From positions 434,001-498,000 of the forward strand of contig NZ_CP047602.1 in the NCBI RefSeq assembly GCF_009905255.1: a DNA stretch of 64,000 nucleotides, written 5' to 3'. This DNA comes from Thermoanaerobacterium aotearoense (GTDB taxonomy: Bacteria > Bacillota > Thermoanaerobacteria > Thermoanaerobacterales > Thermoanaerobacteraceae). The notes below the pieces were generated by a model. It was not told the DNA's origin and ran no database searches. It saw nothing but the letters and a program-made list of their open reading frames with translations. Below, piece by piece: positions 4,887 to 18,358 of this stretch (positions within the stretch are counted from its first letter, which is position 1; the number at the start of each line of letters is the position of its first letter). The position numbers and the translations under genes were made by a program.

Positions 4887-6062
4887 ATGAAAACATTTAG
4901 GTTATGGCTTGTAGTTGCTTTGATGATTTTCGCAACTTTTGCATTTGCAGGTTGTGGCAACAGCACAAATTCAAGCAGCACAAGCTCAAACAATACAAGC
5001 TCAAGTAATACGAGTTCAAGCAATACAAGCTCAAATAGTGCAGGTAAGTATTCAAATGTTGGCATAGTGCTTCCAACAAAAGCTGAATCAAGATGGCCAA
5101 TGGCACAGAAGCAATTTGAACAAGCATTGCCAGGCGCGACGATTCTTTATAGTAACGGAGATACCGCTACTGAAAAGACAAACGTTGAAAGTCTCATATC
5201 TAAAGGTGTAAAGGTTCTTGTTATCGTTCCGCAGGATGCAACTGCAGCAGCGGCTGAAGTAAACGAGGCTCATAGTAAAGGTATCAAAGTTATTTCTTAT
5301 GACAGACTTATAATGAATACACCAAATGTTGACTACTATGTAACATTTGACAGCGTAGCTGTTGGTGCAGCTCAAGCTCAATATTTGGTTGACAATGCTA
5401 AAGGTACAGGTAATCACTTGTATTTATATGCAGGTGCTCCTTCAGACAACAATGCATTCTTGTTCTTCCAAGGTGCTTGGAGTGTTCTTCAACCAAAGAT
5501 TGCTGATGGTACATTTGTAATAGAAAATTCAAGTATTGCTGATTCATTAAAGAACACAGCAACACTTTCCCACAGTCAATTAGCTCAAATTATAGGTCAG
5601 ATTACAACAAACTGGGATCCAGCAACTGCTAAGACATTAGCACAAGCTAACTTGGCAAAAGCAAAGGCAGATCAGAAGGGCGTTGTTTATGTTCTTGCTC
5701 CAAATGATGATACATCACGTGCTATAACAGATACATTCAGAGCAGACAAAGATGTTACTCAGATTTACTCAACAGGTCAGGACTTTACACAGGCTTCGTT
5801 GCAGTACATTTTGGATGGCAAACAGAGCATGACAATTTGGAAATCAGATGCAAAACTTGTTGCTGACGTTAAAGATATAGTTGATTCTATCAACAATAAC
5901 GCAAAGCCATCATGTATCGTAACAACTTACAACAATGGCAGTGCAGATGTTCCTGCAACAAAAGCTCCTTTGACTATCGTTACAAAGGATAACGCTGAAA
6001 GCATTATTAATTCTTCAGGATTGTATAAAGTGGATAACGGTAAAGTTAGTCCAGTACAATAA
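4887..6062 (+). CDS. xylF: D-xylose ABC transporter, substrate-binding lipoprotein
   Basis: 391 residues with a signal peptide and lipobox FAGC (Cys about residue 23), then a Ser/Asn/Thr-rich linker of about 25 residues made of near-repeats, then the binding domain. Family features: QFEQALPGATILY, VLVIVPQDATAAA, KVISYDRLIMNTPNVDYYVTFD, YAGAPSDNNAF, STGQDFT and MTIWK, which match D-xylose-binding proteins. The strong SD AAAGGAGAT lies before ATG 4887. It delivers xylose to the XylG/XylH membrane complex. A hairpin after the gene separates it from xylG, as expected where more binding protein than permease is made. Confidence 0.93.
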   Translation: MKTFRLWLVVALMIFATFAFAGCGNSTNSSSTSSNNTSSSNTSSSNTSSNSAGKYSNVGIVLPTKAESRWPMAQKQFEQALPGATILYSNGDTATEKTNVESLISKGVKVLVIVPQDATAAAAEVNEAHSKGIKVISYDRLIMNTPNVDYYVTFDSVAVGAAQAQYLVDNAKGTGNHLYLYAGAPSDNNAFLFFQGAWSVLQPKIADGTFVIENSSIADSLKNTATLSHSQLAQIIGQITTNWDPATAKTLAQANLAKAKADQKGVVYVLAPNDDTSRAITDTFRADKDVTQIYSTGQDFTQASLQYILDGKQSMTIWKSDAKLVADVKDIVDSINNNAKPSCIVTTYNNGSADVPATKAPLTIVTKDNAESIINSSGLYKVDNGKVSPVQ

Positions 6063-10506: not shown

Positions 10507-10884
10507 TTAAAACTGAACCAAAGTATATAATTCATCTTTTTGCTCTTGATTTACGCCAATATATCTTAAAGTGATTTTCTGAGAACTATGATTAAAAGTA
10601 TCCATTATTAAGCCTATATTATAACGTGATGTCTTGTAACTCCAATATCCCCAAGTTTTTCTCAAACTATGAGTACCAAAATTCTCGACACCAACAGTTT
10701 CAGCGGCTTCTTTCAAGATTCTGTAACTTTGGATTCTTCCTATATGTCCGCCTTTATTGCTTGGAAATAAATAATCATCATATTTTAGACATCTTAATTT
10801 TATATATTTATCAATTTCCTTTTTTAATGATTCATTAATTTTGATTTTTTTTTCTTTTTCGGTTTTTTTCTCTTTAATAGATTT
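10507..10884 (-). pseudogene. Tyrosine recombinase (phage-type integrase), C-terminal remnant
   Basis: On the reverse strand the frame is open from 10884 down to the stop at 10507, without a credible ribosome site or start codon. The translation ends with the catalytic part of a phage-type integrase: YDDYLFPSNKGG, then HSLRKT (His and second Arg of the R-H-R-H/W-Y set), FNHSS, and LRYIG carrying the nucleophilic Tyr. The first catalytic Arg and the whole N-terminal DNA-binding part are missing. Just upstream, in another frame, a stretch reading LLFTSYGIK resembles the missing part but is cut by stops, which points to internal deletion and frame damage. It is a remnant of a lost mobile element. 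Confidence 0.72.
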
Positions 10885-11476: not shown

Positions 11477-11911
11477 TTGAATGAATTGTTAGATTATCAA
11501 TATGTTGTATATGAATTGTGTGGAGAAAAATATGCAATAAAAATAAATGAAGTGTATGAAATTATAAGATTAAAAAAAATTACTTATCTATATAACAGCA
11601 AATCATATTTAGAAGGTATTATAAATTTGCGCGGAAAAATTGTACCAGTCATTAATATACATAGGATATTGGGACTTGAAAATTATTCTGATACTAAATC
11701 AACACGTATTGTAATATTAAGATTTAATGATGAATTAATTGGTACAATCGTTGATAGAGTAATTCAGGTCGCAAAGTTTTCTGATATTCAACCGACTCCA
11801 GAAACAGTAGATGAAATAGATGGAAATTATTTTGAAGGGTTGGGTATTACACAGGATGGTGAAGTTATTGCGATAATGAAAGTTGATAAATTGTTAAATG
11901 CAGAATATTGA
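11477..11911 (+). CDS. cheW: Chemotaxis coupling protein CheW
   Basis: 144 residues, TTG start with GGAGGG 9 bases upstream. It is a single CheW domain (two SH3-like five-stranded barrels): YVVYELCGEKYAIKINEVYEIIR, the conserved GIINLRGKIVPVINIHRILGL, and GTIVDRVIQVAKF. It links chemoreceptors to the CheA kinase in the array. It is the first gene of the chemotaxis operon, 20 bases before cheA. Confidence 0.95.
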   Translation: MNELLDYQYVVYELCGEKYAIKINEVYEIIRLKKITYLYNSKSYLEGIINLRGKIVPVINIHRILGLENYSDTKSTRIVILRFNDELIGTIVDRVIQVAKFSDIQPTPETVDEIDGNYFEGLGITQDGEVIAIMKVDKLLNAEY

Positions 11912-11931
11912 CAGATAAGGGGGTGTGTAAA

Positions 11932-13971
11932 TTGTATGATAGTCCGGAATTTATCAGAGCTTTTCTTGACGAAGTTGATGAGCAACTGGAACTTTTCGAA
12001 AAAAATATTTTGAATTTGGAACGTGATCCAAATGATGAGATAATAAGAGCTTTATTTAGAATAGCACACACACTGAAAGGATCGTCCGCGGCAGTTGGAT
12101 TTGAAAAAATGAAAACCTTGACCCATAAAATGGAAGACGTATTAGATAGGATACGAACTGGTAAAATCAAAGTGACAAAACCATTGATAGATGTCCTTTT
12201 TAGATGTTTAGATGAGTTGAAAACTCTTAAAGAGGAATTTTCTTCAAAAGGTAATAACATAAAAACGGATATAACTTTAACATTATCGGAACTGCACAAA
12301 TATATATCAGGTGATCAGTTGTTGAAAAAAACTGTAGGTGCAGAAATAAATAAAGAGTTCAAACTTGATTTAGAACAACAAATTCAAATACAACAAGCTG
12401 TAGCATCTGGTTTAAATGTATTTGTATGTGAAGTGAAAATAAAAAAAGATTGTGTTATGAAAGCTGTCCGTGCTTTTTTAATTTTAAATTTTTTAAATCA
12501 ATTGGGTACCGTTATTAAAAGTGAACCAGATATGACAGACATGAATGACAATATTGATGTAGAAAGCATTTCGTATTTGTTAATTACTGAATTTGATAAA
12601 GAACAGCTAAAAGTTAAAGTATTAGATAGAATGTTGGAGATTGAAAGTTTTAATGCAGATTTATTTGATTTAAGTTTAATACAGAGCCAATCAGACAATG
12701 GGTGTAATGTGACAAAAGATAGTGGTTATGAAAAACAAAATACAAATGAGATAAGGAATAAGACAAATCAAACAGTTAGAGTTGATATAGGCAGATTAGA
12801 AAAAATGATGGAGATGGTTGGGGAACTTGTGATTGAAAAATCAAGAATTAGTCAAATTGTTAGTTTATTGCATGAGAGGTATAGTTCAGACAATTCTTTT
12901 GAAGATTTAGAGGAAATTTCGAATCAAATATCAAGGATAACAAATGAGCTTCAAGAATTGGTATTAAAAGTTCGTATGTTGCCGATCAAACAATTATTTA
13001 GCAGGATACCACGCTTAGTAAGAGATTTAGCAGATTCTCTGCATAAAGAAATTGAGTTAGTTATAGAAGGCGAAGATACAGAATTAGATAAAACCATAAT
13101 TGAAGATTTAGCAGATCCATTAGTTCATTTGATCAGAAATGCTGCTGACCACGGGATAGAAGCACCTGATGAACGTTTAAAAGCGGGTAAAAATCCTAAG
13201 GGTACTATAAGAGTTAATGCGTATCATCAAGAAAATCAGTTTATTCTTGTAGTACAAGATGATGGGCGTGGAATTAATTTGAATAAAGTTAAAGAAGTTG
13301 CATTAAAAAAAGGAATAATTTCACGTCAGGAGTCAGACTTATTAAATGATAAAGAAGTTTTAGAGCTAATTTTCAAGCCAGGATTTTCTACTTCTCAAAG
13401 TATTAGTGATATTTCTGGACGTGGAGTAGGGATGGATATTGTTCGCAACAATATTAATAAGCTTAATGGAGTTATAGAAGTTGAAACAAAAGAATGGGAA
13501 GGTACGAAATTTATAATAAAACTTCCTTTGACGTTGGCTATTTTAAATGGACTTTTGATACGAATAAACAATGAAATATATGCTATTCCAGTGAGTAATG
13601 TTATAGAAATTGTACGGTTAAATGAGAAAGAAATAAAAAAAATTAAAAATCAAGATGTTGTGATTATTAGAGAAAGAACAATTTCACTAATTTGGCTGCA
13701 TGATTATTTTAAAGTACGTAGAAATATAAGAAATAAAAATATTGTCATTGTAATATTAGGCATTGCTGAAAAGAGATTTGGACTGGTTGTTGATGAACTT
13801 ATTGGCAATCAAGAAATTGTAGTTAAAAATTTTGGTTCGTATATAGGAAAACTCGATATTTTCTCTGGAGCAACTATTTTAGGTGATGGAAATGTAGCAT
13901 GTATTTTAGATGTTGCTGGAATTGTGAAAACAACTGCGTTCAAAAAAAGCTATGATAAGGAATTTGCATAA
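11932..13971 (+). CDS. cheA: Chemotaxis histidine kinase CheA
   Basis: 679 residues from TTG 11932, preferred because AAGGGGG at 11917-11923 is 8 bases upstream; an upstream TTG at 11908 would overlap cheW. Domains in order: HPt/P1 with phospho-acceptor His46 in RIAHTLKGSSAAVGF; a ferredoxin-like P2 region (about 140-225, VFVCEVKIKKDCVMKAVRAF); P3 dimerisation helices (RLEKMMEMVGELVIEKSRI); a P4 ATPase with HLIRNAADHGIE, DDGRGI and GRGVGMDIVRNNI; and a C-terminal CheW-like P5. All parts are complete. It phosphorylates CheY and CheB; no cheY is in this operon. Confidence 0.95.
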   Translation: MYDSPEFIRAFLDEVDEQLELFEKNILNLERDPNDEIIRALFRIAHTLKGSSAAVGFEKMKTLTHKMEDVLDRIRTGKIKVTKPLIDVLFRCLDELKTLKEEFSSKGNNIKTDITLTLSELHKYISGDQLLKKTVGAEINKEFKLDLEQQIQIQQAVASGLNVFVCEVKIKKDCVMKAVRAFLILNFLNQLGTVIKSEPDMTDMNDNIDVESISYLLITEFDKEQLKVKVLDRMLEIESFNADLFDLSLIQSQSDNGCNVTKDSGYEKQNTNEIRNKTNQTVRVDIGRLEKMMEMVGELVIEKSRISQIVSLLHERYSSDNSFEDLEEISNQISRITNELQELVLKVRMLPIKQLFSRIPRLVRDLADSLHKEIELVIEGEDTELDKTIIEDLADPLVHLIRNAADHGIEAPDERLKAGKNPKGTIRVNAYHQENQFILVVQDDGRGINLNKVKEVALKKGIISRQESDLLNDKEVLELIFKPGFSTSQSISDISGRGVGMDIVRNNINKLNGVIEVETKEWEGTKFIIKLPLTLAILNGLLIRINNEIYAIPVSNVIEIVRLNEKEIKKIKNQDVVIIRERTISLIWLHDYFKVRRNIRNKNIVIVILGIAEKRFGLVVDELIGNQEIVVKNFGSYIGKLDIFSGATILGDGNVACILDVAGIVKTTAFKKSYDKEFA

Positions 13972-14002: not shown

Positions 14003-16414
14003 ATGAGTTTTAAGGAGAATATTGCAAAAAAATTGATAAAAGGTACGACATATCATGAAAATTTAAGGAGAGCGATTTATGCCGCAGATAATATTGATAA
14101 TAAACTGAGGAAATTTCTGGATATAACCAATAGGGCACTTAATGGACTAAAAGAACAGTCAACGACAATAGAATCAACTGAAATAAGTGCTGAAGAATTA
14201 ATGGTACTGATCAATGATATAGAGAAAAGTTTAGATGAATTAGCGAAGTTTGTAGATAAAGCTAATAATTCTTTAGAAAAATTATACGGTATCACTGATC
14301 AAGTAGCAGGAAACAGCGAAAGCACAGCAAGCTCAGTGGAACAGATATCGGCGTCGATAGAACAGATAAGCAAATCGATAAAAGGAGTAGCAGGCAATGC
14401 AGAAAGCTTGTCGGCGTCGGCAGAAGAAACATCAGCAGCGATAGAGGAAATGGTAGCGTCAATAAATCAAGTAGCAGGAAACAGCGAAAGCACAGCAAGC
14501 TCAGTAGAACAGATATCGGCGTCGATAGAACAGATAAGCAAATCGATAAAAGGAGTAGCAGGCAATGCAGAAAGCTTGTCGGCGTCGGCAGAAGAAACAT
14601 CAGCAGCGATAGAGGAAATGGTAGCGTCAATAAATCAAGTAGCAGGAAACAGCGAAAGCACAGCAAGCTCAGTAGAACAGATATCGGCGTCGATAGAACA
14701 GATAAGCAAATCGATAAAAGGAGTAGCAGGCAATGCAGAAAGCTTGTCAGCGTCAGCAGAAGAAACATCAGCGACGATAGAGGAAATGGTAGCGTCAATA
14801 AATCAAGTAGCGGGAAACAGCGAAAGTACAGCAAGTTCAGTAGAACAGATATCGGCGTCGATAGAGCAGATAAGCAAATCGATAAAAGGAGTAGCAGGTA
14901 ATGCAGAAAGCTTGTCGGCGTCGGCAGAAGAAACATCAGCAGCGATAGAGGAAATGGTAGCCTCAATAAATCAAGTAGCTAACAGCACTGAAAATATTAA
15001 AAGATTCAGCGATTCGCTAAAAAGTGAAGCACAAAATGGCAGAAAATCAGTAGAAGAAACATTGTCTTCTATTAAAGATATTACTGATGCAATTTATCTA
15101 ACAGGAAACGTAATAAATAATTTAGGGGAAAGCTCTGAGAAGATAGGAAGTATTACGGAAGTTATTGATGATATTGCAGAACAGACTAATTTGTTAGCCC
15201 TTAATGCAGCGATAGAAGCTGCAAGAGCTGGCGAACATGGGAAAGGATTCGCAGTAGTAGCAGATGAAGTTAGAAAGCTTGCCGAAAGAACAGCTACAGC
15301 TACAAAAGAAATAGCCGCACTTATAAAGAGTGTGCAAAAAGAAACAGAACAAGCAGTAAAAGCAATTGAGGTAGGACAAGATAAAGCTAAGCGTGGGACT
15401 GAATTAAGCAATGATATGAGAATAGCGATAGAAAGAATTGTTGAGGGCATAGAAAAAATAAATAATGAGATTAACGAAGTTACATTAGCCGCCGAGGAGC
15501 AGAGAAATCAAGGGCAAAACATAGTAGAAGCGGTAGAAAATATAACAAATCAAGCAGCACAGGTAAGTCAAGCGACAAAAGAGCAAGCAAAAGGAGTGGA
15601 AGAGATAGTACAAGGAGTAAATAACGCCAGAGAACAAGTGAGGCAAATAGCGGCGGCAGCGAAAGAGCAGAGAAATCAAGGGCAGAACATAGTAGAAGCA
15701 GTAGAAAATATAACAAACCAAGCAGCACAGGTAAGTCAAGCGACAAAAGAGCAAGCAAAAGGAGTGGAAGAGATAGTACAAGGAGTAAATAACGCCAGAG
15801 AACAAGTGAGGCAAATAGCGGCGGCAGCGAAAGAGCAGAGAAATCAAGGGCAGAACATAGTAGAAGCGGTAGAAAATATAACAAATCAAGCAGCACAGGT
15901 AAGTCAAGCGACAAAAGAGCAAGCAAAAGGAGTGGAAGAGATAGTACAAGGAGTAAATAACGCCAGAGAACAAGTGAGGCAAATAGCGGCAGCAGCGAAA
16001 GAGCAGAGAAATCAAGGGCAGAACATAGTAGAAGCGGTAGAAAATATAACAAATCAAGCAGCACAGGTAAGCCAAGCGACAAAAGAGCAAGCAAAAGGAG
16101 TGGAAGAGATAGTACAAGGAGTAAATAATGCGAGAGAACAAGCGAAGCGAATAACGACAGCCGTAAAAGAAATAAATGTAAATATCGGAGAAGAAATAAA
16201 TAATTCAAATGTTGTAGATAAACATGCAAAACAAATTGGAGAGTTAATTAAAAAACAAATTTCGGAATTTAAACGAGTTATGATGCTTGTAAAGGAATTT
16301 AGCAGTTTATTAAGCTTAAATGGCAAAGATATTGAAAAATCCATTGATACTACTGAGGAACTTCTTAGCAATGTGGAACAAATAAAAAATATGTTAAGAG
16401 AGTTTGAAATATAA
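14003..16414 (+). CDS. Soluble methyl-accepting chemotaxis protein with symmetric arm repeats
   Basis: 803 residues, ATG 14003 with GGAGG upstream. No membrane helix and no recognised sensor domain: about 100 helical residues, then a very long coiled coil. The signalling tip is canonical ([41 protein letters not shown], split across residues 390-427). Residues 100-323 are four copies of a 56-residue unit containing [20 protein letters not shown]. Residues 499-722 are four copies of a different 56-residue unit containing [18 protein letters not shown]. Both blocks are 672 bases, and their ends are equidistant from residue 411 at the tip, so the copies face each other in the antiparallel hairpin. 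56 residues equal eight heptads. It probably forms cytoplasmic CheA/CheW arrays. Confidence 0.93.
14300..14971 (+). repeat. Four tandem 168-bp repeats, N-terminal arm of the chemoreceptor
   Basis: Units start at 14300, 14468, 14636 and 14804, each exactly 168 bases (56 codons, eight heptads). Copies differ at only a few positions by eye, including silent changes and one Ala-to-Thr, so the expansion is recent or kept uniform by recombination. Confidence 0.97.
15497..16168 (+). repeat. Four tandem 168-bp repeats, C-terminal arm of the chemoreceptor
   Basis: Units start at 15497, 15665, 15833 and 16001, each exactly 168 bases and nearly identical. The last unit diverges over its final 10 codons. 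The sequence is unrelated to the N-arm repeat but has the same period and copy number. Confidence 0.97.
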
Positions 16415-16425
16415 TAATATACTAT

Positions 16426-16470
16426 GTACTACTGAAGAAGTTCCATTCTTCAGTAGTACAATTTTTGTTT
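16426..16470 (+). terminator. Strong terminator-like hairpin between mcp and cheR
   Basis: A perfect 14-bp stem (16426-16439 with 16446-16459) with loop GTTCCA, followed by AATTTTTGTTT. It lies inside the apparent operon, only 16 bases before cheR, so it may reduce cheR/cheB relative to cheW/cheA/mcp. Confidence 0.8.
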
Positions 16471-16485
16471 AGGGGATGGCAAAAT

Positions 16486-17298
16486 ATGATAGCAAATGGA
16501 AAGAATTATTTAGAGGATTTAGCAAATTATATATACGATTTTTGCGGAATTGATTATAAAAATAATTTAAACAATCTTAAGATGAAAATTGAAGCAAGGA
16601 TTAAAGAATTAGGATTATCTATTTGGGAATATTTCGGATATATAAAAATGGAACCAGAAGAATTGGATGTTTTAATAGAATTAATAACTGTTAATGAAAC
16701 GTACTTTTTTAGAGAAGAAAATTTGCTAGAAGAATTTAAAAATTCAATTTTGCCTGAATATATTAATTCTGCAGGTAATAATGTGCGTATATGGTCTGCT
16801 GCTTGTTCGACGGGTGAGGAGCCGTATACAATCGGCATGTTAATTGAAGATAGTGGTTTGTTTAATGGCCGCGAAGTTCAAATTATAGCAACAGACATTA
16901 ATAAAAAAGTATTAGAGAAAGCCCAAAAAGGTCTTTATAAGAAAAATTCATTATCTTTTAGGAGAACTCCTAAAGATATATACGATAAATTTTTTATAGA
17001 TCATGGAGAATATTATAAGGTTAGAGATGAAATTATCAAGATGGTGGAATTCAAAAGAATAAATCTCTTGGATAACGAGCTTGAAATGAAAATAGGGAAA
17101 TGTGATATTATATTTTGTAGGAATGTGTTGATATATTTTGATGAACTTGCAATTCGGAAAATAATTAATGATTTTTATAGAATTTTAAATCCAGGCGGTT
17201 ATTTGTTGCTTGGCCATGCTGAGTCAATAACTGGTGTGCATAGTGGATTTGAAGTAATCCACAAGCCTTCCGTTTTCTATTATAGAAGAAAGGGATGA
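16486..17298 (+). CDS. cheR: Chemotaxis methyltransferase CheR
   Basis: 270 residues from ATG 16486 (AGGGGAT at 16471). A small N-terminal helical domain is followed by a SAM-dependent methyltransferase domain. Visible: NETYFFREENLLEEF, the SAM-binding WSAACSTGEEPYTIGML, ATDIN, DIIFCRNVLIYFD and GGYLLLGHAESI. It methylates glutamates on chemoreceptors, here most simply the soluble receptor of the same operon. That receptor has no obvious C-terminal tethering pentapeptide. Confidence 0.95.
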   Translation: MIANGKNYLEDLANYIYDFCGIDYKNNLNNLKMKIEARIKELGLSIWEYFGYIKMEPEELDVLIELITVNETYFFREENLLEEFKNSILPEYINSAGNNVRIWSAACSTGEEPYTIGMLIEDSGLFNGREVQIIATDINKKVLEKAQKGLYKKNSLSFRRTPKDIYDKFFIDHGEYYKVRDEIIKMVEFKRINLLDNELEMKIGKCDIIFCRNVLIYFDELAIRKIINDFYRILNPGGYLLLGHAESITGVHSGFEVIHKPSVFYYRRKG

Positions 17299-17299
17299 C

Positions 17300-18358
17300 A
17301 TGATGGAAAAGTTTGGTGTTTTAGTTGTGGATGATTCGTCTTTTATGAGAAAGTGTATTACTAAAATCATAGAAAAGAATCCTAAACTTTATGTTGTAGG
17401 AATCGCCAGAGATGGATATGAAGCGATAGAAAAAGTTCAAAATCTTAATCCTGATGTAGTAACTATGGATATTGAAATGCCTAATATGAACGGCATTATG
17501 GCTCTTAAAAAGATTAAAGAATTGCATGATATACCTATTGTGATGCTGAGCAATTATACGGAGGAAGGTGCTAAACCCACTATAGAAGCGTTGGAGGCAG
17601 GCGCAGAAGATTTTTTTCTAAAAAGCGAGTTAATCAAGCAAGATGTTGATGATAAGGTTATCGATTATTTTATAAATAAATTGATAAATATTGTAGAAAG
17701 CAAGAAAGTGCAAAAGCAATGTTTAAAAATCAACATGGATGAAATGGTTAATAAGAGAGTTCTTAACAATGATAAACCAAATGCAAAGACAAATATAATT
17801 ATTATAGGCACATCTACAGGAGGACCAGCCGCTTTACAATCTATACTGCCCAATTTCCCAGCAGATTTATCCGTTCCCGTACTTGTCCTCCAACATATGC
17901 CGCCAGGTTTTACTAAGTCTTTAGCTGAAAGATTTGATACATTCTGCCAACTTCATGTAAAAGAAGCAGAGGATGATGAAGTTTTGCAAAGTGGCAACAT
18001 TTATATAGCTCCATCGGGATTTCAAACTACTTTGCATTTAAGAAGTGATAATAGAGTTTCTTTCAAAATCACAGACAGTTCAAATGATAACAATTTATAT
18101 AAACCATCAATTGATGTTACGTTAAATTCTGCAGCACCGATATATAAAGACCATTTATTAGTTGCCATACTTACTGGTATGGGCAATGATGGAGTTGTCG
18201 GATGCAAATCAGTAAAAGAGAATGGGGGCCATGTTATTATTGAATCTGAAAATACATGTGTTGTTTATGGAATGCCAAAGGCTGTTTTTGAAGCTAAACT
18301 ATACGATGTTCAAGTGCCGTTGCAGGATGTTTTAAAGGAAATATTGACGTATGTGTGA
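17300..18358 (+). CDS. cheB: Chemotaxis response regulator / protein-glutamate methylesterase CheB
   Basis: 352 residues; ATG 17300 (or ATG 17303), 1 base after the cheR stop. The receiver domain has VDDSSFMRK and phospho-acceptor Asp57 in VTMDIEMPNMNG. After a linker, the methylesterase domain carries the catalytic triad region: Ser in GTSTGGPAAL, His in LQHMPPGFT, and Asp in GMGNDGVVG. It removes or deamidates receptor methyl-glutamate sites when phosphorylated by CheA. The operon closes here without cheY, cheC, cheD or flagellar genes. Confidence 0.95.
   Translation: MMEKFGVLVVDDSSFMRKCITKIIEKNPKLYVVGIARDGYEAIEKVQNLNPDVVTMDIEMPNMNGIMALKKIKELHDIPIVMLSNYTEEGAKPTIEALEAGAEDFFLKSELIKQDVDDKVIDYFINKLINIVESKKVQKQCLKINMDEMVNKRVLNNDKPNAKTNIIIIGTSTGGPAALQSILPNFPADLSVPVLVLQHMPPGFTKSLAERFDTFCQLHVKEAEDDEVLQSGNIYIAPSGFQTTLHLRSDNRVSFKITDSSNDNNLYKPSIDVTLNSAAPIYKDHLLVAILTGMGNDGVVGCKSVKENGGHVIIESENTCVVYGMPKAVFEAKLYDVQVPLQDVLKEILTYV

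Follow-up and report, generated by a model that had tools for sequence, protein, structure and literature searches.

The present study describes a soluble chemoreceptor of Thermoanaerobacterium aotearoense that carries two different tandem repeat arrays, one in each arm of its predicted helical hairpin, and a family of related receptors in which the two arms are mostly kept at the same number of units. The gene lies in a stretch of 64,000 nucleotides (contig NZ_CP047602.1, positions 434,001 to 498,000), which is called the window here. The account that we consider probable is that the methylation (adaptation) helices of the receptor have been amplified in tandem, in 56-residue units equal in number on both arms of the hairpin, that copy number changes in single arms, and that an unpaired surplus is disfavoured. 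Slippage or unequal recombination between near-identical units would alter one arm at a time. An unpaired surplus would spoil the helical bundle, so that lineages with equal arms would persist. The outcome would be a helical rod without interruption, of an estimated 60 nm in this protein and as much as 110 nm in its relatives, with an unchanged kinase-binding tip and many candidate methylatable glutamates spread along it. The receptor would be served by its own CheW, CheA, CheR and CheB, probably in a separate cytoplasmic array. This account builds on the repeats, the matched arm lengths, the gene order, the motif enrichment and a single-arm deletion, all of which were observed by computation.

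The receptor gene and its operon

The window genome is a single contig of 2.67 Mb. The receptor gene is part of an operon in the order cheW-cheA-mcp-cheR-cheB, with cheR and cheB directly downstream of mcp:

11477..11911 (+): cheW, coupling protein, gene 1 of the operon (Pfam CheW, E=4e-33)
11908..13971 (+): cheA, chemotaxis histidine kinase with Hpt, P2, dimerisation, ATPase and CheW-like domains (Pfam)
14003..16414 (+): mcp, soluble chemoreceptor of 803 aa, proline-free and without a membrane span (Pfam MCPsignal, residues 337-516)
16465..17298 (+): cheR, receptor methyltransferase, 3' of mcp (Pfam CheR, E=2e-56)
17300..18358 (+): cheB, receptor methylesterase with a receiver domain (Pfam CheB_methylest, E=1e-59; Response_reg, E=9e-25)

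The mcp product is beyond doubt a chemoreceptor (methyl-accepting chemotaxis protein). It matches PF00015 (MCPsignal) at E=3e-67, its highest 19-residue hydropathy is 0.72 and its proline count is zero. The gene order is conserved across most of the homologous loci with full flanks. The operon supplies the receptor's own CheA, CheW, CheR and CheB, as expected of a separate chemosensory system, and the genome encodes a second CheA elsewhere. No CheY ORF was found immediately upstream of the operon in the window genome; a CheY-like gene adjoins the operon in several Clostridium-type loci. By eye, the operon neighbours in some lineages resemble a CheY-like protein, a partner-switching kinase, GGDEF-EAL proteins and an HD-GYP phosphodiesterase, and those in the flanks of three Bacillus- or Clostridium-type loci (L043, L045 and L184) resemble GGDEF-EAL and HD-GYP proteins, an RsbW-like kinase and a phosphatase of the PP2C/SpoIIE type. 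Because of such neighbours (GGDEF-EAL, HD-GYP, RsbW-like), the operon may have an output besides or other than flagella.

The distribution of the gene is patchy, as it was present in 5 of the 9 species searched of the window's genus, and a plasmid search with the receptor protein gave no match at E<=1e-60. Upstream of the che operon a 69-aa ORF (10507-10716, minus strand) looks by eye like the C-terminal end of a tyrosine recombinase. This ORF may be what is left of the event by which the operon was acquired; within the genus the operon is patchy.

Two repeat arrays mirrored about the tip

Tandem Repeats Finder reported a period of 168 bp in both arms, with 4.1 copies and 97% matches at 14298-14979 (N-arm) and 3.9 copies and 97% matches at 15497-16153 (C-arm). 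The organization of the gene is as follows, the units being defined by repeat finder, autocorrelation and unit alignment:

14003..14299 (+): N-terminal helical cap, residues 1-99, outside the 168-bp period
14300..14467 (+): N-arm unit 1, outermost, residues 100-155
14468..14635 (+): N-arm unit 2, residues 156-211
14636..14803 (+): N-arm unit 3, residues 212-267
14804..14971 (+): N-arm unit 4, innermost, residues 268-323
14972..15496 (+): unrepeated core with the kinase-binding tip motif of 17 residues, residues 324-498 (invariant columns; predicted turn)
15233-15235 (+): mirror point, residue 411 (E411), midpoint of both arrays, in the conserved tip
15497..15664 (+): C-arm unit 1, innermost, residues 499-554
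15665..15832 (+): C-arm unit 2, residues 555-610
15833..16000 (+): C-arm unit 3, residues 611-666
16001..16168 (+): C-arm unit 4, outermost, residues 667-722, its end diverged (11-14/168 bp differences from the other three)
16169..16411 (+): C-terminal helical cap, residues 723-803, outside the 168-bp period

Autocorrelation at period 168 placed the array edges at residues ~99-326 and ~498-719, which mirror each other to within a few residues. It should be noted that the phase of a unit inside its array is arbitrary and that the limits 100-323 and 499-722 are one valid phase; in this phase the inner edges lie exactly at -88 and +88 from E411. Each unit corresponds to 8 heptads and contains a weaker half-repeat of 84 bp (28 aa). 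The N and C units differ in sequence. Their local alignment score is 97, whereas shuffles of the same composition scored 51 +/- 13 and reached at most 103, so that the similarity lies at the top of the shuffled range; a common recent origin of the two units was considered and found no support. Thus the sequence-only reading of this DNA, which had claimed four 168-bp (56-aa) units per arm, mirror placement about residue 411 and two units unlike in sequence, was borne out in each of these respects. Long antisense ORFs lie above the arrays on the minus strand (14292-14966, 15480-16229 and 15485-16141; 224, 249 and 218 aa). They are no evidence of genes, because a repeating stop-free 168-bp unit yields them.

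Tip, fold and size

The tip is highly conserved. A stretch of 16 residues is invariant in 17 aligned proteins and is surrounded by a long run of invariant columns, and an alignment of 15 homologues has no gap in the 400 residues about the tip. The model of a piece with two units per arm is a pair of long, unbroken helices that turn at residue 409 (pLDDT 83, pTM 0.37). The best structural matches of this model were chemoreceptor hairpins, with a TM score of 0.71 over 308 columns against McpB (itself from an integrative model), and it also matched Thermotoga receptor crystal structures. A full-length monomer model built from 17 sequences was folded back and was discarded as unreliable (pLDDT 57, pTM 0.26); this low-confidence model has its predicted turn at 409-412. 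The 8-heptad units, the gapless 400 columns and the partial model are in agreement with an unbroken heptad hairpin with equal arms, of 400 (N) and 403 (C) residues. With 1.5 A per residue, the arm of this receptor would measure ~60 nm and that of the longest relatives ~110 nm. Counting arms and caps, this amounts to ~57 paired heptads here and ~105 in the longest relatives.

Candidate methylation sites in the repeat unit

The consensus for receptor methylation sites, as quoted in PMC6829392, is [ASTG]-[ASTG]-X-X-[EQ]-[EQ]-X-X-[ASTG]-[ASTG]. It was found that the N-arm contains 12 strict matches, three per unit, where composition shuffles give an expectation of 0.2. The first Glu/Gln of the motifs falls at residues 113, 141 and 148 and then every 56 residues onward. 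Of the homologues, 18 were tested, and each shows enrichment of the consensus in its N-arm. The innermost motif pair lies 84-85 residues ahead of the first tip residue, which is the distance of the known Tsr site 297. Because the consensus is enriched in the N-arm unit, the repeat appears to be an amplified adaptation region with candidate methylation sites, a feature on which the sequence-only reading had not remarked, and methylation would take place at the repeated motifs. It counts against this account that the strict consensus is missing from the C-arm, which has 0 strict and 4 relaxed matches, one relaxed motif recurring in each unit.

A different emphasis is that length itself is selected, as a spacer for array height or for separation from other arrays, and that the motifs are passengers. 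Receptors of different length sort into separate arrays (cited in PMC6628036), the operon encodes a CheA and a CheW for this receptor, and the C-arm is without strict motifs, all of which would suit a spacer. However, a pure spacer would not need the N-arm motifs that are enriched in 18/18 homologues tested. We regard this possibility as a serious one that falls short of being probable, and it is compatible with amplification of the adaptation helices, not opposed to it.

A family of receptors on a 56-residue ladder

Species-representative genomes were scanned and more genomes searched, which gave 39 proteins with both arms measurable, from 39 species. They come from Thermoanaerobacterium and its family and from Caldicoprobacter, Clostridium, Bacillus-type, Paenibacillus, Saccharibacillus and Brevibacillus genomes. 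Neobacillus relatives, which have extra N-terminal sequence, and three loci cut by contig ends (L012, L177 and L186) were excluded from the arm statistics. When arm length was counted from the first residue of the tip motif, the C-arm was 403+56n within 4 residues in 38/38 scripted cases, and the N-arm of these was 400+56n within 10 residues. Copy numbers were equal in 33 of the 38, whereas 20,000 shuffles gave 5.9 on average and never more than 16, a test that takes no account of relatedness. One further protein with a diverged tip (L168) was placed by hand, with arms of 568 and 571 residues (7+7), and its addition brings the equal arms to 34/39. Matches occur at every rung from 4 to 10. This family of giant receptors, with up to 10 units per arm (10+10), is widespread and had gone unremarked in the sequence-only reading. 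Outside this matched family, an Armatimonadetes receptor (L104, with a 1078-aa open frame) carries repeats of 91 residues, about three in number and solely before the tip.

Unequal arms and turnover of the repeats

Unequal arms were found in 5 of the 39 proteins, all at tree tips:

L044: 3 N, 2 C (draft assembly)
L051: 1 N, 2 C (draft assembly)
L187, from the single-contig relative G012: 5 N, 6 C (copies 99-100% identical; in-frame TAA just before the tip)
L039: 7 N, 8 C (C-array younger than N-array)
L184: 6 N, 10 C (intact operon)

L044 and L051 have the fewest units of all, and repeat collapse in the draft assembly may explain both mismatches. L044 combines a young N-array (copies 96% identical) with an old C-array (68%). 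The gene of L187 may be decaying, a recent pseudogene, because of the in-frame stop before the tip. In L184, exactly 672 bp (four units) are missing from the N-arm alone as compared to L185, which is 95% identical; the N-arms have 6 and 10 units despite identical cores, and the deletion junction lies inside a 21-nt stretch common to both parental units. The five unequal proteins and the intact operon of L184 show that an arm mismatch is viable at least temporarily.

The repeats are also changing at the level of sequence. Alignment of the copies at DNA level showed that units of the same arm differ by 1-14/168 bp within the window genome and by 14-27 from those of the sister species, which is also 4+4. 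Since copies are closer within the genome than between species, both arrays have been homogenised or rebuilt since the sister split with the count kept, in line with the recent or ongoing change that had been proposed from the near identity of the copies. Of the 28 sites that vary in the N unit, 27 fall on the third base of a codon, a mark of constraint on the protein unit (purifying selection); the C unit is less tightly kept (22/33).

It was proposed earlier that the arms grow and shrink by paired duplication or contraction. If both arms were duplicated jointly by one mutational process, their equality would be mechanical and selection would not be needed. In agreement with this, the N and C arrays of the family members correlate in age (Spearman 0.83, to which general lineage divergence contributes), and the similarity among N units mirrors that among C units by position in many proteins, the effect being weak or absent in others. 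The mirroring is most significant in L183 (r=0.63, p=0.0002), where alternative registers are near zero. A first Mantel test had given r around 0.4-0.99, but part of this was driven by degenerate outer caps and the values were moderate after caps and unit means were removed; because of this drop, the positional correlation is kept as support only. Joint duplication is nevertheless improbable, as single-arm changes are observed (the deletion in L184; one-unit differences in L039, L044, L051 and L187), the unrepeated core between the arrays stays unduplicated, and N and C units are too dissimilar for inter-arm recombination. Paired duplication as the mutational mechanism is therefore not supported; gain or loss in a single arm followed by restored matching fits better with the one-arm mismatches and the one-arm deletion.

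The putative packing of each N unit against a C unit, which had also been suggested, has support from the partial model and from the correlation by position, which is moderate and uneven between clades. We put forward only tentatively a further reading, in which the adaptation module is multiplied along a 60-110 nm rod, N and C units pair one-to-one and co-evolve by position, and the arrays by far exceed in height all those described. If this is true, receptor length and the number of methylation sites would change together through repeat gain and loss in both arms.

Matched arms on the tree

A tree of 36 proteins was built from the unrepeated core only, and changes in unit number were counted by parsimony. 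It was found that 17 branches change, 13 of them in both arms and 11 of those by the same amount. Independent contrasts of the two copy numbers gave r=0.96 without L184 and 0.16 with it; the value falls because the cores of L184 and L185 are identical, and the near-zero branch inflates the weight of this pair. Matched arm length as an evolved rule, the central proposal of the sequence-only reading, is strongly supported by the equal arms in 34/39 species and the eleven same-sized joint changes. Related genomes with unequal arms, which had been named as what would speak against it, do exist (5/39), but they are few, lie at tips and in several cases look recent. These results point to a requirement for arms of equal length, and we infer selection against mismatch.

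Inheritance of equal arms from a few ancestors, or chance with neutral drift of the repeats, could account for the uniformity of some clades (Bacillus-type 8+8, Saccharibacillus-type mostly 9+9). Yet this is very unlikely in view of the eleven joint changes of the same size, the equality at every rung from 4 to 10 and shuffles that never exceed 16/38. Least likely of all is that the copy numbers are assembly artefacts: some congener assemblies (G002, G003 and G008, fragmented) do break within the arrays and some mismatches come from drafts (L044, L051), but the 4+4 count is shared by the window genome and a 92% identical congener (G006) as independent single contigs and so is unlikely to be an accident, large or single contigs show 10+10, 8+8 and 6+6 (L183, L043, L191, L178, L192), and diverged copies in several other genera are unlikely to be merged by assemblers.

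Relation to known systems

Length changes of the chemoreceptor hairpin come in matched heptads, and equal arms fit this principle. Heptad length classes of chemoreceptor cytoplasmic domains, with changes matched on both arms, were reportedly described by Alexander and Zhulin in 2007. The present receptors resemble these classes in their antiparallel helical hairpin, conserved tip and length changes by whole heptads. A matching of strand lengths is also needed in the arms of SMC, MukB and Rad50, where a single chain folds back on itself and its two strands make up a long antiparallel coiled coil. These proteins are unrelated to the chemoreceptor and gave weak structural matches to the partial model; to our knowledge their arms are not known as identical tandem repeats. 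Both by sequence and by modelled fold, a soluble Thermotoga maritima receptor (PDB 3g67) and a receptor cytoplasmic domain (PDB 2ch7) rank among the nearest relatives of the core with a solved structure, with 213 and 309 residues compared with 803 here, and we know of no tandem arrays reported for them.

In size the family departs from what has been described. Receptor classes as quoted in PMC6628036 span 12-32 paired heptads (126-336 A), and only 'a few rare' receptors are mentioned as longer. The coiled coils described here, at ~57 and up to ~105 heptads built from tandem 56-residue units, fall outside this range. Cytoplasmic arrays are known from Rhodobacter sphaeroides and Vibrio cholerae, with a baseplate spacing of about 27-35 nm (PMC3964821), and the R. 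sphaeroides cluster has its own CheA, CheR and CheB (PMC6829392). The present receptor is likewise soluble, but if it is straight and the receptors meet end to end, an array spacing of ~120 nm is predicted.

In the open literature no paper on tandem-repeat chemoreceptors was found; most subscription papers lay outside this search, so an earlier description is possible. As far as could be found, the tandem 56-residue growth in both arms, the size and the multiplied candidate methylation sites are new, as is the evidence for changes in single arms in a family where equal arms nonetheless predominate. In this family nature has varied the length of one signalling protein, up to 10 units per arm, while its tip and operon stayed constant. 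Two old questions thereby become directly testable, namely how a conformational signal is passed along a receptor that exceeds the studied ones severalfold in length, and whether extra methylation sites widen adaptation. The family is also a clear example of two unlike repeat arrays within a single gene that are kept equal in number, most simply by structural constraint. Elsewhere in the window, a 15-bp tandem repeat of 4.3 copies was observed at 4971-5034, within an ORF at 4887-6062.
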